Positions 24,417-64,000 of a stretch of 64,000 nt of DNA are shown piece after piece. The position numbers and the translations under genes are program-made. The notes beneath the pieces were generated by a model. The model had not been told where the DNA came from. It saw nothing but the letters and a program-made list of their open reading frames with translations, and made no database searches. This DNA comes from Novosphingobium sp. AAP83 (GTDB taxonomy: Bacteria > Pseudomonadota > Alphaproteobacteria > Sphingomonadales > Sphingomonadaceae): contig NZ_LJHY01000004.1 in assembly GCF_001295795.1 (NCBI RefSeq), positions 1 to 64,000 of the forward strand, read 5' to 3'. How positions within the stretch are numbered: the stretch's first letter is position 1; each line of letters starts with the position of its first letter.

Positions 24417-24824
24417 TTATGCAGACGCCTTCAATGCTGCTGCTGCCTGAAATACGGCGTGATCAAAATAGAACGGCTTGATTTCGCAGCACTTGCCATC
24501 GCGAAAGCGGAACACTTCGCACAATTCAGCAGGGGCCAACGACGGGTCTGCAAAGCGGAACGACAGGATCGTTACCGCATGGTCCTTGCCCGCTGTCGTT
24601 TCAACGCGGTCAAGCCCGACGACATCCACCATCGTCATGACTTTCGCATACAATTCGCGCAGCGCGGTTTTGCCGCGATAGACACCAGCCATCGGCAGGC
24701 CTTCTGCTTCGGTGATGAAGAAATCGTCCGTCAACATCGTTTCTGCCGTGTCGAAATCGCCCACGCCGGTCGCGGCATAGAGGTCGTCGACGAACTGGAT
24801 CATTTCTGCTGCGGTCATGTTCAT
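24417..24824 (-). CDS. SnoaL-like/NTF2-fold protein
   Basis: A 135-residue protein of the NTF2-like superfamily: N-terminal helix TAAEMIQFVDDLYAATGVGDFDTAETMLTDD broken by short loops, then the FFITEAEGLPMAGVYRGKTALRELY segment and a curved sheet ending CEVFRFRDGKCCEIKPFYFD. Members include isomerases, cyclases and proteins of unknown role in catabolic clusters. GAGGA precedes the ATG at 24824. It is monocistronic and divergent from the MDR reductase at 24935. Of six such genes in the window it is the most distinct. Confidence 0.75.
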   Translation of the reverse strand: MNMTAAEMIQFVDDLYAATGVGDFDTAETMLTDDFFITEAEGLPMAGVYRGKTALRELYAKVMTMVDVVGLDRVETTAGKDHAVTILSFRFADPSLAPAELCEVFRFRDGKCCEIKPFYFDHAVFQAAAALKASA

Positions 24825-24840
24825 TTTTGATATTCCTCTT

Positions 24841-24899
24841 CCCGGTTTTGTGCAGGATCACCTAACCGGGCCTCGTGCGAAACCTAGCGATATAGCTAG
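24841..24899. promoter_or_regulatory. Inverted repeats in the divergent promoter region
   Basis: CCCGGTT (24841-24847) pairs with AACCGGG (24864-24870), and CTAGC (24884-24888) pairs with GCTAG (24895-24899) around GATATA. The second is similar to the CTAGCC/GGCTAG pair at 30989. Possible regulator sites; no factor assigned. Confidence 0.35.
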
Positions 24900-24934
24900 C
24901 GCGGAACAGCGCACACTGTCGCTAAGGTGCTCCC

Positions 24935-25942
24935 ATGCAAACAACCCGCCAGATCACCCTCGTCCGCCGCCCTTCAGGCGTGCCTCTGCCTACAGACTTC
25001 GCCCTGACCGTGGCCCCCCGGCCTGTACCCGGCCCCGGTGAAATCCTCGTGAAGATGCGCGTCTGCTCGTGCGATCCTGCCATTCGCGGGTTCCTGGATG
25101 ACCGGCCGAGCTATTTGCCGCCGGTTGCGCTGGGTGCGCCGATCAACGGCATGTCGCTGGGCGAAGTGGTCGAATCGCACAATCCCGATTGGCCGGTTGG
25201 CACCCTGTTGCGCACATTTGCGGTCTGGTCGGAATACTACGTCGTGGGCGCAGACGCCTTGGGCATCGAAAAGGTCGAACCTGTGTCCGGCGTGCCCTTG
25301 CAGCACTATATGGGCGCGCTTGGCCCGGTTGGCCTGACCGCGTGGGTCGGCCTGTTTGAAATCGGCAAGGCGAAGGCGGGTGAAACCGTGCTGGTCAGCG
25401 CCGCAGCCGGCGCCACCGGCAGCACCGTCGTGCAACTCGCCAAAGCCGCCGGATGCCGCGTGATCGGCCTTGCTGGCGGCCCTGCCAAGGCGCAAATCGT
25501 GCGCGATATGGGCGCAGACGTGGCGATTGATTACAAGGCCGCACCCGATCTTGCCGCCGCCATCGCACAAGCCGCCCCCGAAGGCATCGACGTCTATTTC
25601 GACAATGTCGGCGCTGAAACGCTCGAAGCCGTCCTGCCGCTGATGCGCCTCCATGGCCGCATCGCGGTGTGCGGCATGATCGCGCAATACAATGATGCCG
25701 ATAACCCCCACGGCAACCGCAACTTGTGGCAACTGGTGGTCAACCGCCTGACCATGCGCGGCTTCATCACCTATGATCACCCCGAAGTGCTGGGCGAGGC
25801 GCAAGCCATGCTGGATCGCTTGTTCAGCGAAGGAAAGCTCAAGCCGCTCGAAAACGTGCGCGAAGGCCTCGAAAAGCTGCCAGAAGCCTTCATCGATCTG
25901 ATGAGCGGGCGCACCACCGGCAAAACGCTCGTCCTGATTTAA
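24935..25942 (+). CDS. Zinc-less MDR NADPH-dependent oxidoreductase
   Basis: A 335-residue medium-chain reductase of the alkenal/one reductase and quinone oxidoreductase type (CurA/PTGR-like). Features are DPAIRGFLDDRPSY near residue 47, HYMGALGPVGLTAWVGL before the Rossmann motif SAAAGATGSTVVQLAK, then VYFDNVGAETLEAVLPLM. No structural or catalytic zinc ligands are apparent. Such enzymes reduce an alpha,beta-unsaturated carbonyl with NADPH. It leads an operon-like run with SDR, VOC, Rieske ferredoxin and SnoaL genes and has paralogues at 31061 and 36213. Confidence 0.88.
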   Translation: MQTTRQITLVRRPSGVPLPTDFALTVAPRPVPGPGEILVKMRVCSCDPAIRGFLDDRPSYLPPVALGAPINGMSLGEVVESHNPDWPVGTLLRTFAVWSEYYVVGADALGIEKVEPVSGVPLQHYMGALGPVGLTAWVGLFEIGKAKAGETVLVSAAAGATGSTVVQLAKAAGCRVIGLAGGPAKAQIVRDMGADVAIDYKAAPDLAAAIAQAAPEGIDVYFDNVGAETLEAVLPLMRLHGRIAVCGMIAQYNDADNPHGNRNLWQLVVNRLTMRGFITYDHPEVLGEAQAMLDRLFSEGKLKPLENVREGLEKLPEAFIDLMSGRTTGKTLVLI

Positions 25943-25988
25943 GGCATTAAGAAAGGCGTCTAGTCCGTTTGCAAACAAGCCCTTTGGC

Positions 25989-26088
25989 TTCGTCATTTGC
26001 GAGCCCTGCGCAGCGGGGAGAAGCAATCCAGAGCGGATTACACACCCTCTGGATTGCGTCGTCGGCTTCGCCTCCTCGCAATGACGAA
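25989..26088. repeat. Interspersed palindromic repeat, copy 1
   Basis: Starts TTCGTCATTTGCGAGC and ends CTCGCAATGACGAA, with the inner pair GCAATCCAGAG / CTCTGGATTGC. The whole 100 bp can fold into one long hairpin. Related copies are at 28358-28450 and 63400-63490. It sits between two genes of one operon. Confidence 0.85.
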
Positions 26089-26127
26089 GTTAGGTTTGGC
26101 AATAGGCTCAAAAAGAAGGACAGAGTG

Positions 26128-26865
26128 ATGGGAATTCTGGAGGGCAAGACCGCCTTTGTCACCGGCGGCGCATCGGGCCTTGGTGAAGCCATCGCCCGGG
26201 CCTATGTGGCCGAGGGCGCAGCGGTGATCATTGCCGATATCGATGCAACCTCAGGCAAAGCGCTGGCCGAAGAACTGGGCGCGCGGTTCGTCGCGCTTGA
26301 TGTGACACAGGAAGCATCCTGGGCCAGTGCTATCGCCGCCTGTAACCGGATCGATGTGCTGGTCAACAATGCCGGGATCACCACGCTCGGCTCGATTGAG
26401 GAGGTAACCCTCGACCAGTTCCGCCACGAACTGGATATCGATGTGCTGGGCGTGTTCATGGGCATTCAGGCCGCCTTGCCCAAAATGAAGCCGCACGGCG
26501 GATCAATCATCAACATGTCGTCGCTATCAGGCGTCAAAGCCTCGTCCAACCTTGTCGCCTACAATGCGGCCAAGGCGGCGGTAACGCTGATGACCAAATC
26601 CTGCGCGCTGCACTTTGCCGAAAAGGGCTACAACATCCGCTGCAACTCGATCCATCCGGGCGCAATCCACACCCCGATCATCGATAAAGTGCTGGCGCAA
26701 TCGGACACCCCCGATGCGCTTTACCAAAGCTTCGTCGATGTCCACCCCGTCAAGCGTCTGGGACGGCCCGAAGAGATCGCAGCCATTGCGGTCTATCTGG
26801 CCAGCGATGCCAGCGCCTTTGCCACCGGGGCCGAATTCCGCATCGATGGCGGTGCCTCGATATGA
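26128..26865 (+). CDS. Short-chain dehydrogenase/reductase (SDR)
   Basis: 245 residues, classical SDR: NAD(P) motif TGGASGLG at about 12-19, acidic ADID after strand 2 favouring NAD, NNAG, Ser in MSSLSG and catalytic YNAAK, and a C-terminal RIDGGASI. It would oxidise a hydroxyl or reduce a keto group of the pathway intermediate. I start at the ATG at 26128 behind AGAAGGA. Its stop overlaps the VOC start by 4 nt, so the two are translationally coupled. Confidence 0.9.
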   Translation: MGILEGKTAFVTGGASGLGEAIARAYVAEGAAVIIADIDATSGKALAEELGARFVALDVTQEASWASAIAACNRIDVLVNNAGITTLGSIEEVTLDQFRHELDIDVLGVFMGIQAALPKMKPHGGSIINMSSLSGVKASSNLVAYNAAKAAVTLMTKSCALHFAEKGYNIRCNSIHPGAIHTPIIDKVLAQSDTPDALYQSFVDVHPVKRLGRPEEIAAIAVYLASDASAFATGAEFRIDGGASI

Positions 26866-27395
26866 CCGGCGCGCTCCCCATCCGCCAGGTCGCGTTCTTC
26901 GTTGAAGATGTGCGCAGCGCCGCGCGCGCACATCACGCCACGTTCGGATCGGGGCCATTCTTCGTGGCCGACAATATCCCGCTCAAAAGCGCGGTCCATC
27001 GCGGCACCGAACGCCTGCTCGATCATACATCGGCCTACGGGCAATGGGGCGATGTGATGGTGGAATTTGTCAGCCAGAACAATCTCGGCCCCTCGCCCTT
27101 CCGCGATCTTTACCCCGAAGGATCGGGTCGCTGGGGTATGCATCATGCCGCCATCTTTGTGGACGATGTCGATGCCGAAATCGCGCGCTTTGCCGCCAAA
27201 GGTGCCGCCTGTGCCTTACGAGCAGAAATGAACGACGGCTTCGTGTTTGCCTTTGCCGATACAACCGCAACGCTGGGCCTGATGACCGAACTTTACGCCC
27301 CCACCCAAGCGCTTATTGATTTCTATGCAATGGTGGCGCAGGCCGCCAAGGACTATCGCGGCACAGACCCGATCCACACCATACGCATGACTTGA
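26862..27395 (+). CDS. VOC/glyoxalase superfamily protein
   Basis: A 177-residue, two-module VOC protein: RQVAFFVEDVRSAARAHH starts the first beta-alpha-beta-beta-beta unit, and WGMHHAAIFVDDVDAEI the second. Metal-ligand-like His and Glu residues are present (HHA, MVEF, LMTELY). The family includes epimerases, glyoxalases and extradiol dioxygenases, and this subgroup is methylmalonyl-CoA-epimerase-like. It is a paralogue of the gene at 47080 (shared GSGPFF/GIGPFY and DPI ends). Activity unknown; context is catabolic. Confidence 0.8.
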   Translation: MTGALPIRQVAFFVEDVRSAARAHHATFGSGPFFVADNIPLKSAVHRGTERLLDHTSAYGQWGDVMVEFVSQNNLGPSPFRDLYPEGSGRWGMHHAAIFVDDVDAEIARFAAKGAACALRAEMNDGFVFAFADTTATLGLMTELYAPTQALIDFYAMVAQAAKDYRGTDPIHTIRMT

Positions 27396-27404
27396 GGACA
27401 TTTC

Positions 27405-27755
27405 GTGAGCGATACCTGGCACTCCCTGATCCCCGAAGCCGAATTCCCCGCAGAAGGCAAAGTCGCCACCAAAGTCGGCGGCTGGCACGTCTTGCTCGCC
27501 AAAACGGACGAAGGCCTGTTTGCGGTCAATGATCGCTGCACCCATCAGGCAGCCTTGCTCTCCACCGGACGCATCCGCCGTGGTGCGGTAATGTGCCCTC
27601 TGCACGGCGCGCGCTTTGAAATAGCAAGCGGTCGTTGCGTGGGCGGGGCGTACAAGGACTTGCGCCAGTTCCCGGTGCGCCTCGAAAACGGCCAGATCGA
27701 AGTCTGCGTGCCCGATGCCCAACCCGGCATGGATGAATTGCCCATCCAGATCTAA
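27405..27755 (+). CDS. Rieske [2Fe-2S] ferredoxin
   Basis: A 116-residue soluble Rieske protein with cluster motif CTH then CPLHGARF (C-x-H ... C-x2-H) at about residues 45-67 and a short C-terminal strand. It should pass electrons from a reductase to a Rieske oxygenase. It is the only stand-alone Rieske ferredoxin in the window, while four oxygenase alpha subunits are present, so it may serve several. Starts with GTG at 27405. No ferredoxin reductase gene is visible. Confidence 0.9.
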   Translation: MSDTWHSLIPEAEFPAEGKVATKVGGWHVLLAKTDEGLFAVNDRCTHQAALLSTGRIRRGAVMCPLHGARFEIASGRCVGGAYKDLRQFPVRLENGQIEVCVPDAQPGMDELPIQI

Positions 27756-27835
27756 CCTCGCCTATCCCACAGGTTCGCAAGGGGCGGCACCGCGTTACTC
27801 TTGTGCCCAAGCAACAAGAAACCGGAGAGAAACCC

Positions 27836-28264
27836 ATGCCGTTCACTGGCCCTTTCGAAGACCGCCTCGCCATCCGCGAACTGCTTGAGGCTTATGCCGA
27901 TGCCGTTACGCGGATTGATGCCGATGATTGGGCAGCGACATGGGCGCAAGACGCCGAATGGTCGCTGCCCGATTACCCCGAACTTGGCACCACGCGTGGC
28001 CGCGCCGCGATCAAGGCGATGTGGATCGAGGCGATGAAGAGCTATCCCGGCATCATGTTTGAAGCATGGCCCGGCTCGATCGAAGTGACCGGCGATACCG
28101 CCGTAATGCGAAGCTACACCTCGGAAGTCTATGACCAGAACGGTGTGACCATGCGTGATCGCGGCCAGTATGAAGATACCTGCGTGAAGATTGACGGCAA
28201 ATGGCTGTTCAAAACCCGCAGCTTCCGCAACATCCACCGCCAGCACGCACCCAAGGGCTGTTAA
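27836..28264 (+). CDS. SnoaL-like/NTF2-fold protein
   Basis: 142 residues starting MPFTGPFEDRLAIRELLEAY. Sheet segments are WAQDAEWSLPDYPELG and GSIEVTGDTAVMRSYTSEVY, ending KWLFKTRSFRNIH. It is a close paralogue of the gene at 58168 (shared MPFTGP.EDR.AIREL and LPDYP.LG). Probable small isomerase, dehydratase or binding protein of the pathway; no catalytic residue can be named safely. GGAGAG precedes the ATG at 27836. It is the last gene of the 24935 operon, followed by a terminator. Confidence 0.8.
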   Translation: MPFTGPFEDRLAIRELLEAYADAVTRIDADDWAATWAQDAEWSLPDYPELGTTRGRAAIKAMWIEAMKSYPGIMFEAWPGSIEVTGDTAVMRSYTSEVYDQNGVTMRDRGQYEDTCVKIDGKWLFKTRSFRNIHRQHAPKGC

Positions 28265-28286
28265 GCGGCTCCTCCTTCAACAACAC

Positions 28287-28319
28287 AAAAAAGGCGGAGC
28301 CAGAAGCTCCGCCTTTTTT
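28287..28319. terminator. Bidirectional Rho-independent terminator
   Basis: GGCGGAGC (28293-28300) pairs with GCTCCGCC (28306-28313), flanked by six A and six T. It can end transcription from the SnoaL gene and, through the A-run, from the opposite strand. Confidence 0.92.
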
Positions 28320-28357
28320 GTTGCGCTGTCGTGCAGCTGACAGACAAGACCCTTCAA

Positions 28358-28450
28358 TTCGTCACTGCGAGCCCCGCGCAGCGGGGAGAAGCAATCCAGA
28401 GCGATGAAACGCGGCTCTGGATTGCTTCATCGAAGGGCCTTCTCGCAATC
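28358..28450. repeat. Interspersed palindromic repeat, copy 2
   Basis: TTCGTCACTGCGAGC ... GAAGCAATCCAGAGCG ... CTCTGGATTGCTTC ... CTCGCAATC. Same layout as copies at 25989 and 63400. Its right edge overlaps the stop codon of the receptor at 28449, so insertion near that stop may have set the gene's end. Confidence 0.8.
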
Positions 28451-30902
28451 AGAAGCGCTTCGTCACCGTCACCTGAACAGTGCGCGGCAGGTTGCCAAAA
28501 CCGAGCTGGTCAGCGCGAATACCGCCAGCCGTGCCGGTGCCGCCACCGGTCGACGGGCCATCCACCACGCCGCTCACGAAGAAGCGGTTGGTCAGGTTCT
28601 TGCCGATCACCGCGATCTGCCAGTTATCGTCTTCCGCGCCAAAGCGGATGCCCGCATCAAGCACGGCATACTTGCTCTGTTCAGAGAACGGATTGCCAAA
28701 GCCCGATGCCAGATAAGCACCGGAATAGCGTGTATCGACATTGAGACCCAGCTTCATGCCGTTACCGATTGCCGCATCATAACCGATGCCGAATGCGCCG
28801 GTCCATTCAGGCGCAACCGACAGCGGCTTGCCGCCAAGGTTCTGGCGTGGCGCGCCTGCCACCAGCGAACAACCCTGCGCAGGCGTTTGGCCTGCATAGC
28901 ATGGTGCCGATGGGAAGTTGGTATAACGCGCATGGGTGTAGTTGATCGAACCATGCACGTTCAACCCATCAAGGCTGCGCGGTGCATATTCGAATTCCAC
29001 TTCCACACCCTTGGTGCGCGCATCGGCGGTCAGCGTCTGGAACGCGAAGATCGGCGAGTTGAAGAAATCGACCTGCAAATCATCATAGGCATAGCTGAAT
29101 AGGCCAAGATTCAGCCGAAGCTGGTTGTCCAGCACGGTTGACTTGATGCCGAATTCGAACCCGCGCGCCTTTTCAGGATTGAAGGTGAGATCAGCCAGCG
29201 GATCAGCCGAAAACTTCGAATTGATCCCGCCGTTCGAGAAACCGCCCGACTTATAGGCCGTCTTGTACGCGCCATAAACCAGCACATCATCAACCGGCTT
29301 CCACGTCAGCGTCACTTCAGGCGACCAGTCGTTGAAGGTTTGCTGTGCGCTGATTTCGCCCTGACCATCGGGATCGGCCTCGTCGCGGAAAATCCCCTGC
29401 ACGCCGATGTTGTTGTAAGGCTGCGTGAAATAGCTGTCCTTGGTTTCGTGGGTGTAACGCACCCCGCCTGCCAGTTCGAGCCGGTCCACGATTGCCCATG
29501 TTACCTGGCCGAACAGCGCGGTGGTTTCACCATCGGTGAAGCTGGTCTTGGCCGAAGCGACAAAACGGTTGGCAGCAGCAGCCCGATCATCGCGCAAACC
29601 CGCAAAGGCCACATACTGTTCAAATTCGCGCTTGGTCTTCTGGTACAGGCCGCCGATCATCAGATTGATCGGGCCATCAAACGCGGTTTGCGCACGCAAT
29701 TCCTGCGAAAATGCACGCCATGTGGAATTTTCCGTCGCCCACGTTGCGTTGTTGCTCGTCTGGAAGTCGCAGGCGCAGGCCCAACGGTTGTTGTTGGTGT
29801 TGTAATTGGTGACAGAGCTGATCGTCAGATCATCGTTGACGGCATAAGTGATATTGCCGTTCAGCGCCCACGAACGATAGCGATTGTAGAGCGAACCGTC
29901 GCTTTTCGCGAAGGGGAAGTTGGCGGCAATATCAACCGGCATGTTGTTCTGGTGCGTGACGAAATCGGTGCCGCAAGCATAGCCGGTCAACTGGCTGATG
30001 CCGTTGGCGTTGCCGCAATTGTACGCCACATAGTTCCACGACGAATTGTTCACTTCGTTGTGATCGAACGAGCCCTTGACCGTCATGGTCAGCTTGTCGT
30101 CCGGCGTATACTTCAGCGTGATACGGCCCAGCAATTCATCCTCGCCCGGTGCATCGGCAGCAGCAGGCAAAGCAAGATGGCCGATCGGGTTTCCAGCACC
30201 GCCGGTCAGCAGGTTCTGGATATCAACCGTGGTATAAGTGCGGTTGACCGAGACATTGCGATAATAGCCCTTGTCCATCATCGAACCGCGCACGGCCAAA
30301 CGCACACCAAAGGTATCGGACAACGGAACCGAAGCGATGAACTCGCCAAGGTATTGCTGCGAGCGGAATTCATACCCGGCACGCGCGATGAATTCGCGGT
30401 CCTGGCCCGGATCATTGGTGGTCAGCGAGATCACGCCAGCCGTCGCGTTCTTACCAAAGAACAGCGCCTGCGGGCCTTTGAGCACTTCAACCCGCTTAAG
30501 ATCGAAGAAGCCTTCCTGAATGACGCGGCCTTGCCCGTAATAGGCGCCATCCACCACCACGGCGACCGACTGTTCGATACCGATCGAGGTTGATGACGAA
30601 CCGATGCCGCGCATCGTCAACTGCGCGCCCGAACCGTTCGAAGCACGGCCGACCGAAAGGTTCGGCGTCGCGCCTGCGATCTTTTCGATGCTGGTGATAT
30701 CGCGCTGCTGGATCACGCGCTCGGAAATGGCGGTAACCGCAACCGGCACGGTCTGCACCGATTCTTCACGCTTGCGTGCGGTCACGATGATTTCTTCAAG
30801 CCCGCCGCTGCTGGCCCCCTCTTGTGCCGCATCTTGGGCAAAGACCGGTGTGGCCGCAGTCAATGCGCAAGTCGCTAACAGAAGCGTTCTAAATGACCGC
30901 AT
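28449..30902 (-). CDS. TonB-dependent receptor
   Basis: An 817-residue outer-membrane receptor. Signal peptide (LLLATCALTAATPVFAQ), TonB-box-like LEEIIVTARKREES near residue 35, plug with RVEVLKGPQALFFGKNATAGVI, and a beta-barrel with the C-terminal RTVQVTVTKRF ending in Phe. It is divergent from the MDR-ThuA pair, an arrangement repeated with the receptor at 33723. It presumably takes up the hydrophobic or glycosylated substrate of this cluster. Confidence 0.93.
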   Translation of the reverse strand: MRSFRTLLLATCALTAATPVFAQDAAQEGASSGGLEEIIVTARKREESVQTVPVAVTAISERVIQQRDITSIEKIAGATPNLSVGRASNGSGAQLTMRGIGSSSTSIGIEQSVAVVVDGAYYGQGRVIQEGFFDLKRVEVLKGPQALFFGKNATAGVISLTTNDPGQDREFIARAGYEFRSQQYLGEFIASVPLSDTFGVRLAVRGSMMDKGYYRNVSVNRTYTTVDIQNLLTGGAGNPIGHLALPAAADAPGEDELLGRITLKYTPDDKLTMTVKGSFDHNEVNNSSWNYVAYNCGNANGISQLTGYACGTDFVTHQNNMPVDIAANFPFAKSDGSLYNRYRSWALNGNITYAVNDDLTISSVTNYNTNNNRWACACDFQTSNNATWATENSTWRAFSQELRAQTAFDGPINLMIGGLYQKTKREFEQYVAFAGLRDDRAAAANRFVASAKTSFTDGETTALFGQVTWAIVDRLELAGGVRYTHETKDSYFTQPYNNIGVQGIFRDEADPDGQGEISAQQTFNDWSPEVTLTWKPVDDVLVYGAYKTAYKSGGFSNGGINSKFSADPLADLTFNPEKARGFEFGIKSTVLDNQLRLNLGLFSYAYDDLQVDFFNSPIFAFQTLTADARTKGVEVEFEYAPRSLDGLNVHGSINYTHARYTNFPSAPCYAGQTPAQGCSLVAGAPRQNLGGKPLSVAPEWTGAFGIGYDAAIGNGMKLGLNVDTRYSGAYLASGFGNPFSEQSKYAVLDAGIRFGAEDDNWQIAVIGKNLTNRFFVSGVVDGPSTGGGTGTAGGIRADQLGFGNLPRTVQVTVTKRF

Positions 30903-30988
30903 GGTAATGTCTCCCTGGAATATTTTCGTTACAGTTTCTCGCGCCCGTCTTTAGTTTTTCATGCCGAAAATCACGCCTCCTCAATCGA

Positions 30989-31009
30989 CTAGCCTGATCT
31001 ATTGGCTAG
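30989..31009. promoter_or_regulatory. Inverted repeat in receptor/MDR divergent region
   Basis: CTAGCC (30989-30994) and GGCTAG (31004-31009) around a 9-nt spacer, 52 bp before the MDR start. Similar to CTAGC/GCTAG at 24884, which also lies ahead of an MDR gene. Confidence 0.35.
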
Positions 31010-31060
31010 GTGTGGCAAGCTTGTCGTCACGGCACCTCCTGTTACCGAGAGGAATTCCCG

Positions 31061-36059: not shown

Positions 36060-36095
36060 TCAGTATCCTCCCTCATGGGCTGCCTCGCCTCATGT

Positions 36096-36111
36096 GGGCG
36101 ATAGCTCGCCC
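36096..36111. promoter_or_regulatory. 16-bp palindrome in receptor/MDR divergent region
   Basis: GGGCGA-TAGC-TCGCCC, 36 bp upstream of the receptor start codon at 36059. Possible operator for the divergent pair; no factor assigned. Confidence 0.35.
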
Positions 36112-49500: not shown

Positions 49501-49504
49501 CGCT

Positions 49505-56491: not shown

Positions 56492-56557
56492 CAATTCCCT
56501 CCCATGGTCGGGCGCCGACATTTCACGCCGGTCGCCTCCTTTCACGAATCGCCAAAT

Positions 56558-56577
56558 AACAGGCGATGCTGCCTGTT
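56558..56577. promoter_or_regulatory. Inverted repeat between receptor and TetR genes
   Basis: AACAGGC-GATGCT-GCCTGTT, perfect 7-bp arms, 67 bp upstream of the receptor ATG and about 82 bp upstream of the TetR ATG. An overlapping ATCGCC/GGCGAT pair lies at 56549-56567. A good TetR-operator candidate by position and shape. Confidence 0.5.
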
Positions 56578-56658
56578 TTATGATCCTATCCTTGGTGATG
56601 TGCCTACTAGCGGTTTTGTCAGGAGGTCTTGGCAAGCGCGAAAAGGCATGACAGGACG

Positions 56659-57330: not shown

Positions 57331-57466
57331 GGCCCTGCCCTCCAAATTTGCGGCAGGCTAGCCGGATTTCTCGCTGAAACACCAGTAGTCCCACCGGCAC
57401 CACTGGTGCAAACAATCGCCAACACATCCCGGCACAGCGCGGGACCAAGATGGGAGAGCAGGCACT

Positions 57467-58153
57467 ATGGCTATCGTCGCAATTACCGGCGCAGGGCGCG
57501 GGATCGGGCTGGAACTGGCAAGGCAGCACGTCGCAGCAGGGGACCAGGTACTGGCGCTGGTGCGCGATCCGCAGGGCGCAACCAGCCTTGCCGATCTGGC
57601 CGCATCTTCAGGCGGCAGTCTGACCGTCCATCAGATGGACGTCGGCAACGACGCCTCGGTCAAGGCCGGTGCTGCCGATACCGGCAGCGCTGCCATCGAC
57701 ATCCTCTACAACGTCGCCGGGATCGCTGGCCCCGAAGCCCCCGAACTTGACGGTGCAGACTGGGCAGCGTGGGACGATACCAACCGCATTATGGTGCAAG
57801 GCCCGCTGCGCGTCTTGCACGCCTTCCTCCCCCGCTTGGGAGCAGGCGCTAAAGTCATCAACATCTCCAGCCAACTTGCCGCCTCGACATGGCCCTATGG
57901 CGGTTTCTACGCCTATGTTGCCGCCAAAGCCGGTCTCAACCGCATGATGCGCTCGGTCGCGGTTGACCTCAAGGATCGCGGCGTGATCATTGGCCTTGTT
58001 CATCCGGGCTGGGTGAAAACCGATATGGGCGGCGAAGGCGCGGACCTCACGCCCGAAGAGAGCGCCACCGGCATCCGTAATGTCGCGGCCAACTGGACGC
58101 TCGAAACATCGGGCGATTTCCTGAAATGGAACGGTGAAACCCACGCTTGGTAA
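57467..58153 (+). CDS. Short-chain dehydrogenase/reductase (SDR)
   Basis: A short, 228-residue SDR of the C-factor/carbonyl-reductase-like subgroup: TGAGRGIG, VRDPQG after strand 2 (NADP-type Arg), Ser in ISSQLA, catalytic YVAAK, and HPGWVKTDMGGEGADLTPEES near the end instead of the usual DGG tail. GGAGAG precedes the ATG. Transcribed with the SnoaL gene 14 nt downstream and possibly from the TetR promoter. Confidence 0.88.
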   Translation: MAIVAITGAGRGIGLELARQHVAAGDQVLALVRDPQGATSLADLAASSGGSLTVHQMDVGNDASVKAGAADTGSAAIDILYNVAGIAGPEAPELDGADWAAWDDTNRIMVQGPLRVLHAFLPRLGAGAKVINISSQLAASTWPYGGFYAYVAAKAGLNRMMRSVAVDLKDRGVIIGLVHPGWVKTDMGGEGADLTPEESATGIRNVAANWTLETSGDFLKWNGETHAW

Positions 58154-58167
58154 GGAGTTAAGCGCCA

Positions 58168-58602
58168 ATGCCATTTACCGGACCAATCGAGGATCGCACC
58201 GCCATCCGCGAATTGATGGACACCCACGCCCACGGCGTGATGACCAGGGACGCCGAACTGTGGGGTTCAATCTGGGCAGAAGATGCCTATTGGGAACTGC
58301 CCGATTATCCCGATCTTGGCGGCTTTACCGGCAAGGACGTGATCGTTTCAGGCTGGGTGGAATCGATGAAGCATTACGGTCTGGACAATTGCACCAAACC
58401 GATGATCTACTTCATGCAACCCGGATCCATCGAAGTGGATGGCGATAAGGCCAATGCCATCGCCTACACCATCGAGATTTACGACGATCCCGCCACAGGC
58501 AAACGCATCCACACCACCGGATGCTACACCGACGAACTGCGCAAGATTGACGGCGCATGGAAATTTACGCGCCGGGCCTACCGCACGATTTTTGCTGATT
58601 GA
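58168..58602 (+). CDS. SnoaL-like/NTF2-fold protein
   Basis: 144 residues, MPFTGPIEDRTAIRELMDTHA at the start, WAEDAYWELPDYPDLGG, GSIEVDGDKANAIAYTIEIYD and DGAWKFTRRAYRTIF. Paralogue of 27836. The pair differs in loop lengths, suggesting related but distinct substrates. AAGGAG precedes the ATG. Second gene of the SDR-SnoaL unit, ending at a shared terminator. Confidence 0.8.
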   Translation: MPFTGPIEDRTAIRELMDTHAHGVMTRDAELWGSIWAEDAYWELPDYPDLGGFTGKDVIVSGWVESMKHYGLDNCTKPMIYFMQPGSIEVDGDKANAIAYTIEIYDDPATGKRIHTTGCYTDELRKIDGAWKFTRRAYRTIFAD

Positions 58603-58644: not shown

Positions 58645-59424
58645 TCAAATCTGACTGAAACCGCCATCCATCAGGAATTCGCTGCACGTAACAAAGCTTG
58701 CGGCCTCCGAACACAGATAGACCACGCCGCCGCCCATTTCATCAGGACGGCCCATGCGGCCAATCGGGTGGTTGGCCACAATGCCTTGCAGTGCAACCTC
58801 GCGCGATGGCACCGCGCCCAGTTCCACATAGCGGTCCATGATCGATCCCAACATGCTGGTATCGATCCCGCCGGGATGCACCGAATTGACGCGGATGTTA
58901 TAGCCAAGCGCGGCAAACTCGGCGCCAAGGCACTTTGACAGCATCTTCACCGCAGCCTTGCTGGTGCAATAGGCCGCATTGAAGGCCGCGCCGCGCAATC
59001 CGCCCACGCTTGAGAAATTGACCACCGAAGCGCCACCTGCGCGCGCCTTGCCACCCCCGCGCAGCAATGGCAGTAACACCTGACAGCCGATAATGACCGC
59101 ATCCACATTCACCGCGTTCACCCGGTGAAAGTCGGCAAGCGGCGTCTCGTCAAACTTGCCGACGATAGAGATACCGGCATTGTTCACCAGCGCATCCAGC
59201 CGCCCGTACTTTTCCTGCACCAGCGCGGCCACCGCCTGCCAATCAGCCTCATTGGTCACGTCATGCTGCAAATAGTGATCCGCGCCCTCGATATCTGCCG
59301 AAGCGGCCATGTCGGTGGCGATCACCACCGCATGGGCGGCCTTCATCGCCTTCACCAGTTCGCGGCCGATCCCGCCCGCAGCCCCGGTGACCACGGCCAC
59401 CACGTTGTCCAAAGCGATTGTCAT
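58645..59424 (-). CDS. Short-chain dehydrogenase/reductase (SDR)
   Basis: 259 residues: TGAAGGIG, TDMAASAD after strand 2, NNAG, Ser in FSSVGG, catalytic YCTSK, C-terminal FLMDGGFSQI. Last of three consecutive SDR genes; its ATG overlaps the stop of the previous gene (ATGA). Three coupled SDRs suggest successive oxidation of hydroxyls or stereo-specific variants acting on one scaffold. Confidence 0.9.
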   Translation of the reverse strand: MTIALDNVVAVVTGAAGGIGRELVKAMKAAHAVVIATDMAASADIEGADHYLQHDVTNEADWQAVAALVQEKYGRLDALVNNAGISIVGKFDETPLADFHRVNAVNVDAVIIGCQVLLPLLRGGGKARAGGASVVNFSSVGGLRGAAFNAAYCTSKAAVKMLSKCLGAEFAALGYNIRVNSVHPGGIDTSMLGSIMDRYVELGAVPSREVALQGIVANHPIGRMGRPDEMGGGVVYLCSEAASFVTCSEFLMDGGFSQI

Positions 59425-60236
59425 TGCGCCGTATATCCCCCGTCGATGACAAGCTCGCCACCGGTCATGTAACTTGAATCTTCAGATGCGAGGAAGAACG
59501 CGGCAGAAGCCAGCTCTTCAGGTTGGGCAAGGCGACCAAGCGGCGTCATCCCCACCACACCTGCCACCAGATCATCGGGCTTTTCGGCAAAGCCCTGATC
59601 GACCCAGCGCTGGAAGCCCGCCTTCAACAATGGCGTTTCGACAAAGCCGGGGTGCAGCGAATTGGCGCGGATCGGCATTTTCTTCTGCGCAAATTCAATC
59701 GCGATGCCTTTGGTAAACAGCCGCACCGCGCCCTTGCTGGCGTTATAGGCCGAAACCTCGTTCATCCCCACCAGACCCATGATCGAACTGACATTGATGA
59801 TCGAAGAACCGCCCCGGAAATCGGTGCCGCTTTGCGCCATAAGCGGCACGAAATGCTTGGTGCCAAGGAACACGCCATCGACATTGATCGACATGATCCG
59901 CCGCCAGCCCTCAAGCGTCATATCCTCTACCGGGCCGGTCAGATCGATCCCGGCATTGTTCACAAGGATATGGCACTTGCCGTGGCGTTCCTTGACCAGT
60001 GCAATCGCGCGCCCCCAGTCTTCCTCTTTGGCCACGTTGGCGCTGATATAGCTGGCGGCCTGGCCAAGCTGTGCCATCACCTCGCGCGCGGTATCGCCAT
60101 CTTCGGCATCAAGATCTGAAAGCACCACTTCGGCACCCTCGGCCAGAAACCGCCGGGCGCAGGCAAGGCCGATGCCGCGAAGTCCGCCCGATACAAAGGC
60201 GACGCGGCCCTTCAGCCGTTGTGCAGATAATTCCAT
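59421..60236 (-). CDS. Short-chain dehydrogenase/reductase (SDR)
   Basis: 271 residues: SGGLRGIG coenzyme motif (Ser for Thr), SDLDAEDG after strand 2 favouring NAD, NNAG, Ser in VSSIMG, catalytic YNASK, C-terminal VIDGGYTAQ. ATG at 60236 with a nearby GAGG; TTG 60245 is an alternative. Middle gene of the three-SDR operon, starting 5 nt after the upstream stop. Confidence 0.9.
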   Translation of the reverse strand: MELSAQRLKGRVAFVSGGLRGIGLACARRFLAEGAEVVLSDLDAEDGDTAREVMAQLGQAASYISANVAKEEDWGRAIALVKERHGKCHILVNNAGIDLTGPVEDMTLEGWRRIMSINVDGVFLGTKHFVPLMAQSGTDFRGGSSIINVSSIMGLVGMNEVSAYNASKGAVRLFTKGIAIEFAQKKMPIRANSLHPGFVETPLLKAGFQRWVDQGFAEKPDDLVAGVVGMTPLGRLAQPEELASAAFFLASEDSSYMTGGELVIDGGYTAQ

Positions 60237-60241
60237 CAACC

Positions 60242-61024
60242 TCAAACCCCCATCATTCCGGCGGTCGTCGCACCGTCGATTGCGTATTCTGCGCCAGAGA
60301 TGAACCCGGCCTCATCGCTCGAAAGATAGGCGACCAATCCGGCCACTTCATTCAGTTGCGCCATGCGCTTCAGCGGAGCCATGCCTTCATACATCGCACG
60401 CGCCGCCGCAGGATCGGGCTGCGCATTCATGATCTGCTGGATCAGCGGGGTTTCCACCACGCCCGGCAAAATCGCGTTGACGCGGATGCGATAGCCCTGC
60501 TGCCCGCAATGCACCGCCGCCGATTTGGCCAGCGCGCACACCGCCGCCTTGGTCACCGAATAAGTCACATAATTGCCTAAGGGGCGCGTCGCATTCATCG
60601 AGGAGTTGATAATGATCGATCCCGCAGGCCCTTCGGGATTGCGCTTCATACCCAAAATCGCGTTCTGCACGGTCAGCATCACACCGGTTTGGTTGACCGC
60701 CACGACATTGTCCCAACCCTCGATGCCCACATCTTCAATGCTGGCATCGCCGCTTTCGGTGCCCGCATTGGCAAACACGATGTCGAGACGGCCTTCGGTC
60801 GCGATGATTTCATCGATCAACGGTGCCCATGCGGCAGCTTCCTGCACGCGGTGCTTACGAAAAGTCGCGCCGGTTTCAGCCACCAGCGCAGCGGCAGCCT
60901 CCTCTTTCGATCCGGTGAACCACACCTTTGCACCCTCGGCACTCAGCCGCGCCACTGTTGCTGCGCCAATCCCGGTCGTACCACCGGTGATAAGCGCGAC
61001 TTTACCTGCAAGCCTGTTTGACAC
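60242..61024 (-). CDS. Short-chain dehydrogenase/reductase (SDR)
   Basis: 260 residues: TGGTTGIG, FTGSKEEA after strand 2, Ser in NSSMNA, catalytic YSVTK, then GVVETPLIQQ and C-terminal AIDGATTAGMMGV. It starts with GTG at 61024 after GGGAGAG; the longer frame to 61093 has no support. First gene of the three-SDR operon, divergent from the Rieske oxygenase at 61190. Confidence 0.89.
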   Translation of the reverse strand: MSNRLAGKVALITGGTTGIGAATVARLSAEGAKVWFTGSKEEAAAALVAETGATFRKHRVQEAAAWAPLIDEIIATEGRLDIVFANAGTESGDASIEDVGIEGWDNVVAVNQTGVMLTVQNAILGMKRNPEGPAGSIIINSSMNATRPLGNYVTYSVTKAAVCALAKSAAVHCGQQGYRIRVNAILPGVVETPLIQQIMNAQPDPAAARAMYEGMAPLKRMAQLNEVAGLVAYLSSDEAGFISGAEYAIDGATTAGMMGV

Positions 61025-61189
61025 TGTTCTCTCCCGCGAGAATCCGTAAGAATTTATCGTGCAAGTGGTTACGCTTGCCACGCGCCTGTGCAACCTATGC
61101 TTTCAGCAAGGTGACTTGCGCGCGTGCGTGGATCAAAACCGGCGGCATTGCCCGAGACGCGGGCGTGAATCGTGGGTGAGGAAACAAAA

Positions 61190-62617
61190 ATGGCTGACAG
61201 CGATCCCAACATGGGCCGCGATACCCTTGAAGGCGGCAGGGCACGTAGCGAAGCAATCAGTTGGCAGGAACTGTTGGCGCAGGATTCGCGCCCCGCGCCC
61301 GCGATCCTCACCGAAGAAAGCTACGAATACCGTGGCTCCGAACCGCTGGACGCCAGTCGCTATACCAGCGAGGACTTCGCCCGTCTGGAACGCGAAAAGA
61401 TGTGGCCCCACGTCTGGCAATTCGCCGCCCGCGAAGAAGATATCCCCGAAGCTGGCGATTACACCGTGTTTGAAAACGCGGGCCGGTCTTGGCTGATCAG
61501 CCGTCAGGAAGATGGCAGCGTCAAGGCGATGCACAACGTCTGCCTGCACCGTGGCCGTAAATTGCGCACCGAAGATGGCACGGCGGACAAATTTACCTGC
61601 CCGTTCCACGGCTTTGCGTGGAACAAGGACGGCAGCTTTGACGGCATGCCCTGTTCATGGGACTTCAAGCACTTATCGGCTGAAAAAATGTCCCTTCCCG
61701 AAGCCGAAGTCGGCCGTTGGGCTGGCTATATCTTCTTGCGTGAGGAAAAGGGCGGCCCCAGCCTTGAGGAATACCTCGCCCCCCTGCCCGAATTCTTCAA
61801 ACGCTGGCGGCATGAAGAATGCACCACTGTCATCTGGGTGGCCAAGGAAGTCCCGGCCAACTGGAAGGTGACCGCCGAAGCCTTCATGGAGGCGTGGCAC
61901 ACGGTCGTCACGCACCCGCAATTGCTGCCCTTCACCGGCGATGCCAACAGCGCCTACTGGATCTATGGCGATAATGTGAACGTCAATCATGTGCCGTTCG
62001 GGATCATGTCCCCGCACGTCGATCCCGATGGCAAAACGCAGCAGTGGATCGTTGACGAATTCTGCAAGTACAATGGCCGCAGCGCCGACAATTATGACGC
62101 GGCGGGCGATCCCTTCGCCGTCAGCGTGCCCGAAGGCATGACGGCGCGCGCCGCCTTGGGCGCTGCCATGCGCGCAGGCTATTCCGCGCAAACCGGCTAT
62201 GATCACGATGACGCCACCGATGCCGAATTGCTCGACGGCCTGGTTTACAACGTGTTCCCCAACTTCGCGCCCTGGGGCGGGTTCATGCCGAACATCGTCT
62301 ACCGCTGGCGTCCCGGAAAAACGCCCGACACCTGCCTGATGGAAGTGCGCATCATTGCGCGCGTCAAGAAGGGTGATCCGATGCCGCACGGCGTGCCGAT
62401 GAAGCTTTTGACCAAAGACCAGAAATGGACCGACGCGCCTGAACTGGGCGTTTTGGGTCACGTGTTCGAACAGGACATGGACAACCTGCCCTATGTGCAG
62501 GATGGCCTCCATGCTTCGAAAACCGGAAAGATCAACCTTGGCGATTATCAGGAAATCCGCATCCGCCAGTTCCACCAGACGCTCGACAAATATCTGGGCG
62601 CAGGGGCCGCTGAATGA
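61190..62617 (+). CDS. Rieske non-heme iron oxygenase, alpha subunit
   Basis: 475 residues. Rieske motif CLHRGRK ... CPFHGFAW. Catalytic AFMEAWHTVVTH with Glu at the bridging position and Trp in place of the usual Tyr before the first His. C-terminal FEQDMDNLPYVQDGLHAS then GDYQEIRIRQFHQTLDKYL. Closest in-window relative is 49505. The ATG at 61190 follows GAGGAAA. The stop overlaps the ThuA start by 4 nt, so the two proteins are made together. Confidence 0.92.
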   Translation: MADSDPNMGRDTLEGGRARSEAISWQELLAQDSRPAPAILTEESYEYRGSEPLDASRYTSEDFARLEREKMWPHVWQFAAREEDIPEAGDYTVFENAGRSWLISRQEDGSVKAMHNVCLHRGRKLRTEDGTADKFTCPFHGFAWNKDGSFDGMPCSWDFKHLSAEKMSLPEAEVGRWAGYIFLREEKGGPSLEEYLAPLPEFFKRWRHEECTTVIWVAKEVPANWKVTAEAFMEAWHTVVTHPQLLPFTGDANSAYWIYGDNVNVNHVPFGIMSPHVDPDGKTQQWIVDEFCKYNGRSADNYDAAGDPFAVSVPEGMTARAALGAAMRAGYSAQTGYDHDDATDAELLDGLVYNVFPNFAPWGGFMPNIVYRWRPGKTPDTCLMEVRIIARVKKGDPMPHGVPMKLLTKDQKWTDAPELGVLGHVFEQDMDNLPYVQDGLHASKTGKINLGDYQEIRIRQFHQTLDKYLGAGAAE

Positions 62618-63390
62618 CCGATACGGCGCATCCTCCCCGCATTGATTGCGTACTCGTCTGTGGCGGCGTGTGGCACGATATGGACTTTGCACGGCTTGAA
62701 CTGCTCAAGCTCCTTGCCGAAGACCCATCCGTGCGCACCCGCGTGTTCGAGGATTACGAGAACATCGAGGCGATCAAGGCCGCCGATATCCTGATCACCT
62801 ACACCTGCGATGTCACCCCCTCGCTAAAAGCGCAGGAAGCCTTGCGCGGCTGGCTTGAAGCTGGCGGGCGCTGGTATGCGCTCCACGGCACCAATTCGGT
62901 GCTGCGCCTGCTGGCAGACGGGCCGAACAAGGGCCTGTGGGATGCGCCGCGCTGGGCACCGCTGATGATGGACATGCTCGGCAGCCAGTTCATCAGCCAC
63001 CCGCCCATCGCGCCCTACACCGTCACCGTGGCAGACCCCGATCACCCGCTGACCCGGGGGATCGAACCGTTCGAAACCACGGACGAGCTCTATCACATGG
63101 AATGCCACGGGCACTTGCACGTCCTGCTCGAAACCGAATGCACCGTCCCCGGCACCGGCTTTGTCGAAGCGGCAGACGCTATCGGCACGCACCCGGTCAT
63201 GTACCTGAAAGACCACGGCGCAGGCGCAGTGCTCTATAACACGCTAGGCCATTGTCGCGGACACTATGACCTTCAACCCATGCTCGATTGGTGGCCCACA
63301 GTGGATCGCTGCGCATGGGACTTGCCGGTATTCTACGACCTGCTCCGGCGCGGCATCGGCTGGCTGAAAGACCGCCCCGCCAAAGCATAA
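62614..63390 (+). CDS. ThuA-like domain protein
   Basis: 258 residues: IDCVLVCGGVWHDMDFARLE, AADILITYTCDVTPS, GGRWYALHGTNSVLR, MECHGHLHVLLETEC and MYLKDHGAGAVLYNTLGH. ThuA/GATase1-like fold without the glutaminase Cys. It is coupled to a Rieske oxygenase, whereas the other ThuA (32071) is coupled to an MDR reductase, so it probably acts after oxidation steps. Reaction unknown. Confidence 0.82.
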   Translation: MTDTAHPPRIDCVLVCGGVWHDMDFARLELLKLLAEDPSVRTRVFEDYENIEAIKAADILITYTCDVTPSLKAQEALRGWLEAGGRWYALHGTNSVLRLLADGPNKGLWDAPRWAPLMMDMLGSQFISHPPIAPYTVTVADPDHPLTRGIEPFETTDELYHMECHGHLHVLLETECTVPGTGFVEAADAIGTHPVMYLKDHGAGAVLYNTLGHCRGHYDLQPMLDWWPTVDRCAWDLPVFYDLLRRGIGWLKDRPAKA

Positions 63391-63399
63391 CCCCCAACG

Positions 63400-63490
63400 T
63401 CGTCATTGCGAGCACAGTGAAGCAATCCAGAGCGCCATACACCGCGATCTGGATTGCGTCTCCCCGCTGGGCGGGGTTGGCAATGACGAA
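63400..63490. repeat. Interspersed palindromic repeat, copy 3
   Basis: Begins TCGTCATTGCGAGC and ends GGCAATGACGAA with inner GAAGCAATCCAGAGCG / GATCTGGATTGCGTC. Same design as the copies at 25989 and 28358, with a GCGGG variation in the right arm. Lies between convergent genes. Confidence 0.83.
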
Positions 63491-63565
63491 GTGATTTCCC
63501 CTTCTTCCCCCCTCCCGTTTACGGGATGGGTCGGGGGTGGGCTTACAGCCTATGCGCCAACCGCC

Positions 63566-64000
63566 TCAACCCACCGCAGCAAACCGGTCCAGCGCCACTT
63601 CAGGATCATCGGGCCAGCGCGAAATCGCCAGCAGCCGCTTGTGCCCGTGCCCGATAAACAGTTCATCGGTCACGCCCATGCCGCCGTGGAACTGGATCAT
63701 CTCATGCCCCAATTCCACCGCCGCTGGCGCGATAAACGCGCGCAGACCATAGACGGCAGAGGCAAAACGGTCTGATCCGGCAGACACGATGGCAAGGTTC
63801 AGCAACGCCCGCGCCTGTTCGATCACCGCATATTGCGCGGCCATGCGGTGCTGGATCGCCTGAAAGCTGCCCAGCGGCACGCCAAACTGCTCGCGCGTGC
63901 GCAAGTAATCCAGCGTCGCATCAAACAGATGCTGCATGATGCCCACAGCCTCGGCTGATCGGGCAATCGATGCCAGGAGGTCGTTCTCTTCAAGATCCGC
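63566..64000 (-). CDS. Acyl-CoA dehydrogenase, C-terminal part (cut by window end)
   Basis: The open frame runs to the window edge, so only the last ~144 residues are seen. They match the helical C-terminal domain of acyl-CoA dehydrogenases: REQFGVPLGSFQAIQHRMA, then ELGHEMIQFHGGMGVTDEL and GHGHKRLLAISRWPDD, which contribute to FAD and CoA binding. Codons upstream of 63946 (ADLEENDLLASIARSAEA) continue the same protein. With the CoA ligase at 40229 it points to a beta-oxidation-type step in the cluster's pathway. Confidence 0.9.
   Translation of the reverse strand, partial: ADLEENDLLASIARSAEAVGIMQHLFDATLDYLRTREQFGVPLGSFQAIQHRMAAQYAVIEQARALLNLAIVSAGSDRFASAVYGLRAFIAPAAVELGHEMIQFHGGMGVTDELFIGHGHKRLLAISRWPDDPEVALDRFAAVG

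Follow-up and report, generated by a model that had tools for sequence, protein, structure and literature searches.

The question raised by this locus was what is encoded by a dense run of catabolic genes in the window, by which is meant the whole stretch analysed, bases 1-64000 of contig NZ_LJHY01000004.1 (C34) of Novosphingobium sp. AAP83 (genome of 4.23 Mb; positions past the window are given as C34:). A preliminary description had regarded positions 24417-64000 as an uncharacterised 40-kb catabolic supercluster made of about ten short operons. By our own gene calling, 40 genes (g15-g54) were obtained within 24417-63937, and this gene set is almost certainly part of one two-tier island in which a widely occurring core is joined in some genomes by an upper module. 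It is also quite likely, judging from conserved upstream sites, that one LuxR/lux-box regulon spans the island. As a whole, the locus is tentatively read, with slightly less than even confidence, as a conserved catabolic island for an alicyclic isoprenoid under a single LuxR-solo regulon.

All 40 genes were scanned with Pfam at E ≤ 1e-5. The scan assigned ten short-chain dehydrogenases/reductases (SDRs; g17, g24, g27, g29, g30, g43, g47, g49, g50 and g51), four Rieske oxygenase alpha proteins (g32, g39, g41 and g52), a single P450 (g42), three medium-chain dehydrogenases/reductases (MDRs; g16, g22 and g26), three vicinal oxygen chelate (VOC) proteins (g18, g28 and g38), six SnoaL genes (g15, g20, g37, g40, g44 and g48, with two SnoaL stretches in g44), two ThuA proteins (g23 and g53), an EthD protein (g34), a xylose-isomerase-like TIM barrel (g33), an FAD flavoprotein (g36), a CoA ligase (g31) and an acyl-CoA dehydrogenase (ACAD; g54). 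Every gene class of the preliminary description was recovered except the cytochrome, since g35 had no Pfam match at this threshold and its one CxxCH motif is the sole basis for the name. The stand-alone Rieske ferredoxin g19 and the TetR regulator g46 were not on the earlier list, and the three TonB receptors (g21, g25 and g45) had been named there solely within a proposed test. The CxH-CxxH Rieske motif and the ExxHx4H iron-site motif were present in all four Rieske oxygenases; names of the GbcA, HcaE or benzoate type were rejected for these proteins, as they fell far below the NCBIfam cut-offs. None of ten proteins scanned (eight in the window and two just beyond) reached a curated NCBIfam cut-off among the matches listed. 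In agreement with the preliminary description, no extradiol ring-cleavage dioxygenase was found among the 40 genes by Pfam; HsaC/TesB of 9,10-seco steroid degradation was found in none of them either, and the VOC members matched Glyoxalase models only.

The proposed operon structure and extent had to be revised. By strand and a 60-bp gap rule the genes fall into 25 transcription units, and they form one LuxR/lux-box-marked island with core and upper module rather than about ten short operons. The island also continues beyond the window to about C34:72.7 kb. The ACAD gene g54 crosses the window edge (open frame of 376 codons, reaching C34:64696), and to its right lies a LuxR-family gene (C34:64805-65569), which is followed up to about 72.7 kb by genes for a thiolase, an ACAD, the E1 and E2 components of a 2-oxoacid dehydrogenase (the name E2 was taken from the annotation of plasmid pNL2) and a VOC protein. 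Unrelated genes such as UvrB follow past this thiolase-to-VOC set.

The gene set was judged not to be a chance grouping, because an orthologue of each of the 40 genes lies on pNL2 of N. aromaticivorans DSM 12444 (69-93% identity) and because much of the island gene order recurs in other genomes. The pNL2 orthologues form two blocks about 48 kb apart, which span about 61-96 kb and 143-166 kb (SARO_RS18165-18335 and SARO_RS18510-18615); SARO_RS18325 corresponds to g32, SARO_RS18545 to g41 and SARO_RS18605 to g52. Further, pNL2 differs in its extra Rieske, FAD and SDR genes (RS18290, RS18295, RS18315, RS18570 and RS18585) and in an insert with sigma-54 regulator, cytochrome and aldehyde dehydrogenase genes. 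From the comparison, the core was defined as g20-g34 with g28, g49-g54 and then LuxR, thiolase, ACAD and E1/E2 past the window. Some core genes are absent from some genomes: the P6W core, at C1:1177-1204 kb, is an uninterrupted run of about 25 kb that lacks g23, and in G083 neither g20-g23 nor g29 could be found. The upper module (g35-g48) lies between g34 and g49 in the window and in genomes G028, G021 and G009, and pNL2, ES2-1 and G033 hold parts of the island as separate blocks. The genes are distributed as follows.

24417-27755: g15-g19, SnoaL protein (minus strand), then MDR enone reductase, SDR, VOC protein and Rieske ferredoxin (plus strand); pNL2 orthologues 80-91% identical; no counterparts in the 60-kb stretches from P6W and G083
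27836-28264, plus strand: g20, SnoaL/NTF2 protein (Pfam); core in P6W, not found in G083; without the Asp-His pair described below
28449-33575: g21-g24, TonB receptor (minus), MDR and ThuA (plus), SDR (minus) (Pfam, orthologues); g23 not found in the P6W stretch, g21-g23 not found in the G083 stretch
33723-37953: g25-g27, core block, TonB receptor (minus), MDR and SDR (plus) (Pfam, orthologues)
37961-40222: VOC protein g28 and SDR g29 (minus), SDR g30 (plus), core (Pfam, orthologues); g29 only 44% identical in P6W and not found in G083
40229-41851, minus strand: g31, CoA ligase, core (Pfam, NCBIfam)
42029-44372, plus strand: g32 Rieske oxygenase, g33 TIM barrel and g34 EthD protein, core operon (Pfam)
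44376-46522, minus strand: g35 CxxCH protein and g36 FAD dehydrogenase, upper module (Pfam, motif, PDB relatives)
46618-50926, minus strand: g37 NTF2, g38 VOC, g39 Rieske, g40 NTF2 and g41 Rieske, upper-module operon
51013-52212, minus strand: g42, CYP101-family P450, 83% identical to pNL2 SARO_RS18540
52322-54126, minus strand: g43 SDR and g44 two-domain NTF2/SnoaL protein (Pfam, orthologues)
54194-58602: g45 TonB receptor (minus), g46 TetR regulator, g47 SDR and g48 SnoaL (plus), upper module
58645-61024, minus strand: g49, g50 and g51, three SDRs, core operon (Pfam, orthologues)
61190-63390, plus strand: g52 Rieske oxygenase and g53 ThuA, core (Pfam, genome survey)
63566-64000, minus strand: g54, ACAD, the C-terminal part in the window

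A conserved core across genomes, which the preliminary description had proposed to look for, was indeed found. Among 195 Novosphingobium genomes, at the thresholds used, the core marker g52 was found in 69, g32 in 70, both in 66 and either in 73. The upper-module markers were rarer (g41 in 27, g36 in 18 and a CYP101B1-like P450, counted at 59% identity or more, in 24) and were confined to genomes with a core marker (27/27, 18/18 and 24/24 as raw genome counts, uncorrected for shared ancestry); because many of the 195 genomes are drafts, apparent absences may be gaps. At the family level, g32 was found in 20 of 298 genomes drawn from the family, which represent nine of 96 genera, Novosphingobium included. 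The thiolase-to-VOC set was near the core in all eight other genomes with a long enough stretch (G003, G021, G028, G033, G083, G085, P6W and pNL2), although in G028 it lies some 26 kb from LuxR on the opposite side of the island; N. humi, with LuxR at the record start, and the stretches of G009 and SA1, without the LuxR region, were not counted. On the N. humi plasmid, the core adjoins genes annotated as methylmalonate-semialdehyde and 3-hydroxyisobutyrate dehydrogenases, ACAD, enoyl-CoA hydratases and thiolase. These neighbours, of the valine/isobutyryl-CoA type, could be needed to degrade a carbon skeleton with a gem-dimethyl or isopropyl group.

The LuxR-family protein next to g54 contains a GerE-type DNA-binding domain (PF00196, E 1.8e-14), and no further gene of this kind was found in the genome at E ≤ 1e-5. 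Orthologues (65% identity or more) were found in 74 of the 195 genomes, 72 of which carry a core marker, and an orthologue was missing from only one of the 73 core genomes (G064). In 49 of the 57 genomes with both genes on one contig, LuxR starts within 6 kb of g52. The pNL2 orthologue, SARO_RS18620, which is 92% identical, likewise adjoins the g54 orthologue.

It may be asked whether this is an ordinary quorum-sensing LuxR that binds an acyl-homoserine lactone (AHL), in which case the island would answer cell density and not its substrate. This alternative concerns the switch only, is compatible with any substrate, and is considered unlikely. There is a precedent in Croceicoccus naphthovorans, in which LuxI/LuxR with lux boxes is reported to control genes for polycyclic aromatic hydrocarbons (PAHs) (PMC7432010). 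A match to luxI (PF00765) was found once or twice in each of five of the seven genomes searched, but not in this genome (G000) or in N. aromaticivorans (G065). The N. humi LuxR orthologue matched the autoinducer-binding domain PF03472 weakly (20.3 bits, E 4e-4, below the cut-off of 23), whereas neither the protein studied here nor that of pNL2 matched it at E ≤ 0.001. Profile matches to LasR and TraR extended into the ligand domain, but most matches to solved LuxR proteins covered little beyond the DNA-binding part. According to the available text of a 2013 survey of six Novosphingobium genomes including N. aromaticivorans, one LuxR solo was reported, in strain PP1Y, and it was found via the autoinducer-domain signature (PMC3704786).

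The LuxR-solo regulon is suggested by an element upstream of the island genes, which was first found by phylogenetic footprinting in upstream-region alignments of five to nine genomes; a search for perfect inverted repeats common to the promoters gave none that was useful. In 10 of 26 upstream sets (4 to 20 orthologues per set, several sets being the two sides of one region) the pattern CT-N12-AG reached 0.8 of the orthologues, and each of 28 other spacings gave 0 or 1 set. When each region was counted once, CT-N12-AG was conserved at 0.75 in 8 of 18 upstream regions and ranked first among 7,424 dinucleotide-spacing-dinucleotide patterns; the runners-up, at five regions, were CT-N13-GG, which overlaps it, and CT-N5-TT. 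The published lux box is NNCT-N12-AGNN (PMC7432010). One lux-box-like site was found before the LuxR gene and nine in the window, where they precede promoters of both core and upper-module genes.

24882-24901: between g15 and g16; conserved in 6 of 6 orthologous regions
27755-27774: before g20; 6 of 8; outside the matrix training set, recovered by the scan
30992-31011: between g21 and g22; 7 of 8 upstream of g22
36141-36160: between g25 and g26; 11 of 11 upstream of g26
39341-39360: between g29 and g30; 14 of 14 upstream of g30
41938-41957: between g31 and g32; in 11 of 17 upstream of g31 (by aligned column) and in 2 of 20 upstream of g32 (poor alignment); a box of at least 7/10 at any position of the region in 16 of 17
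50999-51018: upstream of g41; 12 of 16; top score in 164 kb, itself in the matrix
56605-56624: between g45 and g46; 17 of 18 upstream of g46
61093-61112: between g51 and g52; 10 of 16 upstream of g52 and about 1 of 15 upstream of g51

We infer that the LuxR protein acts on these sites. Sites of the NNCT-N12-AGNN form are also described before catabolic promoters of C. naphthovorans PQ-2, likewise of the Sphingomonadales (PMC7432010). Unlike that system, the island has a divergent LuxR, no luxI in the genome, nine sites in the window and no PAH genes, and its control by LuxR is predicted.

The same evidence bears on the possibility that the locus is a catabolic 'flea market', that is, a set of unrelated short pathways that stand side by side and derive from duplicated TonB receptor/MDR/SDR/SnoaL/Rieske units. 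Such duplication would explain the relatives found among the genes (g16/g22/g26 at 37-42%, g21 and RS18415 at 55%, g52 and RS18295 at 60%, g20/g48 at 48-49%), and the separate blocks of pNL2 and ES2-1 and the coming and going of upper genes would fit as well. Nevertheless, one type of conserved site precedes promoters of both tiers, one LuxR travels with the core, and the upper markers are restricted to core genomes, and the flea market is regarded as highly improbable. A phage origin was rejected, as none of nine phage records matched by g41 held a place covering 80% of it.

As to the chemistry, the enzyme set suggests ring hydroxylation, oxidation, desaturation, dehydration, enone reduction and CoA-dependent degradation. 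The best PDB relatives of g36 are the entries for cyclohexanone dehydrogenase of Alicycliphilus denitrificans (8AM3, 8AM6 and 8AM8; PMC10966990), with residues 8-577 aligned at E of about 1e-107. Its score was 364 bits to 8am8 and 135 bits to the next protein, a 3-oxosteroid 1-dehydrogenase. The N-terminus of g36 is twin-arginine-like, and its C-terminal YLGAGG (Tyr-Gly motif) was the only catalytic feature compared with cyclohexanone dehydrogenase. In contrast to the Alicycliphilus enzyme, g36 adjoins a small CxxCH protein within a multi-oxygenase island. For the CoA ligase g31, the second-nearest NCBIfam model was cyclohexanecarboxylate-CoA ligase (373 bits, cut-off 792, among the best 25 of 78 matches). 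These relatives point to alicyclic rather than aromatic ring opening, and alicyclic chemistry would account for the missing extradiol dioxygenase.

The SnoaL proteins are candidates for the dehydration steps. The model of g40 showed an NTF2 fold (predicted local distance difference test, pLDDT, of 87), with structural matches to a scytalone-dehydratase-like protein (3ef8), LinA, LdpA and the BaiE-type bile-acid 7-alpha-dehydratase. In NTF2-fold dehydratases such as LinA, scytalone dehydratase and BaiE, an Asp-His pair is catalytic. This pair was present in g40, g37 and both halves of g44 (g44a and g44b) and absent from g20 and g48; in g15 no residue aligned at the His. Among the g40 relatives, Asp was kept in 21 of 22 and His in 22 of 22. 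The pNL2 orthologue of g37 is a solved structure (PDB 3B8L, Saro_3538). The g33 model was a TIM barrel (pLDDT 83), whose nearest structures were a fusion of a xylose-isomerase-like protein with 4-hydroxyphenylpyruvate dioxygenase (HPPD) and sugar isomerases.

The chief rival is that the island is a variant of steroid, sapogenin or bile-salt degradation, with the Rieske oxygenases as KshA-like hydroxylases, g36 as ketosteroid dehydrogenase and SnoaL/EthD proteins as hydroxysteroid dehydratases. Sphingomonads are reported to use Hsh2 (NTF2-like) and Hsh3 (EthD domain) as steroid dehydratases (PMC12175502, PMC8399759), and progesterone-type steroid genes are reported on pNL2 as well (PMC12239570). 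Judged from descriptions in other papers, the bile-salt and steroid clusters of Sphingobium sp. Chol11 and Caenibius tardaugens are alike in style, with Rieske oxygenases without an adjoining reductase gene, NTF2 and EthD proteins, SDRs, TonB receptors, a CoA ligase and ACAD; the TonB receptors and CoA ligase of the island are compatible with this. But as read from the annotation, the bile-salt-like genes of pNL2 (LLM, steroid delta-isomerase, Rieske and amidase) lie apart from the island orthologues, at about 217-241 kb, and, unlike those clusters, the island has no extradiol dioxygenase among its 40 genes. The best NCBIfam match of g36 was 3-ketosteroid-delta-1-dehydrogenase, at 245 bits against a cut-off of 789, whereas among solved proteins its 364 bits to cyclohexanone dehydrogenase compare with about 126-135 bits to ketosteroid dehydrogenases. 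Moreover, the P450 belongs to CYP101, a family known for camphor and ionones (PMC9655578). A steroid-type substrate is held to be quite unlikely.

For a plant aromatic substrate (lignan, stilbene or flavonoid), the MDRs would be double-bond reductases and the Rieske proteins O-demethylases or ring hydroxylases. The nearest NCBIfam model of the MDR g26 is indeed the curcumin reductase CurA (339 bits, cut-off 440), and a copy of the core in Croceicoccus has TIM-barrel and DUF6379 genes amid the core genes, which we take to be like C-glycoside deglycosylation sets. Degradation of lignin aromatics by N. aromaticivorans is described in published abstracts. Still, no ring-cleavage dioxygenase is among the 40 genes, and the P450, g36 and the E1/E2 complex would suit alicyclic chemistry better; this explanation is considered very unlikely.

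An alicyclic isoprenoid substrate, which we regard as an even call, is suggested in part by the P450. Family membership of P450s is assigned at a level of at least 40% identity. By this rule g42 falls into the CYP101 family. Its pNL2 orthologue SARO_RS18540 is one of five such P450 homologues in N. aromaticivorans at E ≤ 1e-30. Of the others, one is CYP101C1 (897 bits to 3oft), two fit CYP101D2 and D1 by near-equal bits (383.1/383.0 and 364.3/364.5) and are 47% and 45% identical to SARO_RS18540, respectively, and the fifth is 35% identical, with at best 212 bits, and nearest to P450cam. Because these four were eliminated, SARO_RS18540 is most likely CYP101B1, and g42 is by the same elimination most likely its orthologue. 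To our knowledge, the natural role of CYP101B1 is open, the enzyme having been studied as a biocatalyst. It acts on beta-ionone (PMC9655578, PMC6237146), and according to the available text of the former source it had no structure. Because the P450 is a CYP101B1 orthologue by this assignment, a C13 norisoprenoid or a similar monocyclic terpenoid would be the likeliest entry substrate, although a norisoprenoid in particular is rather doubtful.

Abscisic acid was also considered. Strain P6W (G108) grows on it, and its RNA-seq data, which compare abscisic acid with fructose, are public as PRJNA529223 (PMC6938937). P6W has the core and LuxR, but g41, g36 and a CYP101B1-like P450 had no match in it at the thresholds used. 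Abscisic acid was thus rejected as an explanation of the upper module and could concern the core only; since 73 of the 195 genomes have core markers, P6W gives a weak hint on the core substrate.

For the island as a route for an alicyclic isoprenoid, we infer all catalytic steps as follows. The TonB receptors would take up the substrate, and the P450 g42 and the Rieske oxygenases g41/g39 would hydroxylate unactivated ring carbons. The SDRs would then oxidize alcohols to ketones, the NTF2-fold proteins with the Asp-His pair (g37, g40 and both g44 halves) may remove water, and the flavoprotein g36 with g35 may desaturate a cyclohexanone-like ring. The product of the upper module would pass to the core, where Rieske oxygenases g32/g52, SDRs, MDR enone reductases, g33 and g34 would complete ring oxidation. 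A non-extradiol cleavage, hydrolytic or of the retro-aldol type, might yield acids and a 2-oxo acid, and the CoA ligase, ACADs, E1/E2 complex and thiolase would carry out the final breakdown. LuxR would be the sensor of the substrate or of a metabolite.

In its fullest form, the proposal is that a LuxR without a synthase senses an apocarotenoid/norisoprenoid (ionone-type) or a related isoprenoid and controls a regulon of about 40 genes for extradiol-free alicyclic ring opening, which would place CYP101B1 in its physiological context and amount to a new route of mineralisation; this combination seems unlikely. If it were true, a common genus would contain a bacterial sink dedicated to ionone-like volatiles or related terpenoids, the core of the new route would be carried by over a third of the genomes of that genus, and a LuxR protein would have shifted from quorum sensing to carbon-source sensing. 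The placement in a conserved regulon makes the natural role of CYP101B1 testable in a laboratory strain. Even if the substrate is guessed wrongly, the split into core and upper module and the lux-box-like sites indicate the genes to be deleted and the promoters suited to reporters.

Several points weigh against a single LuxR-solo regulon for an alicyclic isoprenoid. The reading is drawn from sequence and comparison, and the co-occurrence counts are the raw ones given above. On the side of regulation, the missing autoinducer-domain match of the LuxR protein itself has to be counted; its orthologue also occurs without a core marker in two genomes (G020 and G168), and relatives at 48-57% identity occur elsewhere in the genus, core-free genomes included. 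Ten of the 18 upstream regions were below the conservation threshold, and the lux-box tests share regions with those of the first discovery. In a leave-one-out matrix scan of 164 kb the nine sites ranked only 2nd to 77th, and the scan was unspecific, as equally high scores were given by sites within g31 and within g42 and by one that lies outside the island, before g01. On the side of chemistry, besides the sphingomonad steroid dehydratases and the NCBIfam match of g36, the structural matches of g40 have to be considered, which at rank 26 include a ring-hydroxylating beta subunit (3eby). Compared with its orthologues (348-372 aa), g44 (53212-54126) is cut short by an early in-frame stop, after which matching residues continue; either a sequencing error or a true loss of about 44 residues may lie behind this. 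The name CYP101B1 comes from elimination, with no direct sequence match. The P450 was not found in the g41-module copies of Aquisediminimonas and of two metagenome-assembled genomes; 6 of the 24 P450 genomes had no g41 match and 9 of the 27 g41 genomes no P450, some of them being drafts. As the P450 is thus optional, CYP101B1 activity may not tell the substrate of the core.

With regard to earlier work, no pathway assigned to this locus or its pNL2 counterpart was found in a search of the open-access literature, subscription journals being mostly outside it. Synteny with a locus of published pathway function, which the preliminary description had named as the refuting condition, did not turn up: the syntenic pNL2 locus belongs to a published genome, but no pathway was found assigned to that locus. 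In this respect, as in the NCBIfam scan, the term uncharacterised holds. It does not hold for all the parts: the locus is already known in part, because the P450 is by elimination the orthologue of a known ionone hydroxylase and the g37 counterpart has been solved, and it is for the pathway chemistry that no published account was found. The tomatine-degrading Sphingobium RC1 was dropped as a comparison, since Rieske, P450 and SDR terms were absent from the available text on it (PMC10653915).

Two parallel clusters of the core type seem to exist in some genomes. G108 (C2:1922105-1924365) and G106 (C4:688058-690333) each have another g52-like Rieske gene (74% and 75%, respectively) beside another LuxR gene (65% and 69%), and G088 carries two LuxR genes. 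On plasmid pCME4A9I of Croceicoccus marinus (524001-568000), genes for an FAD oxidoreductase, a TIM barrel, a DUF6379 protein, a major facilitator superfamily (MFS) transporter and a TonB receptor lie amid core-type genes; this inserted set presumably resembles glycoside-opening loci. The insert of pNL2 at 78-86 kb, between the g27 and g28 orthologues, holds genes for a sigma-54 regulator, two cytochromes c, an FAD-binding oxidoreductase, an aldehyde dehydrogenase and a transporter, and is perhaps an alkylphenol hydroxylase set.

To the left of the island, a sugar-acid/glycoside locus at 13333-24347 comprises a GntR regulator, an MR_MLE-family (mannonate-dehydratase-like) enzyme, a PfkB kinase, GH3, a 506-aa protein without a Pfam match at 1e-6, an MFS transporter and a TonB receptor. 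In the stretches compared, no such locus was found next to the catabolic island, and a saponin/glucuronide link via the neighbours g08-g14 was rejected, as these had no orthologues beside the cluster there. At 11437-13164, a bacteriorhodopsin-like gene is followed by a beta-carotene 15,15'-dioxygenase-like gene (Pfam), perhaps a light-driven pump and its retinal-making enzyme. An intergenic repeat of about 40-115 bp with inverted-repeat parts (25985-26102, 28285-28429 and 63418-63494) is similar to stretches on many other contigs of this genome and looks like a repetitive extragenic palindromic (REP)-type element. At the contig start, positions 1-4000 have a low G+C content (0.42 and 0.48 compared with about 0.60) and include a 590-aa reading frame on the minus strand (607-2379), possibly a mobile or foreign gene.

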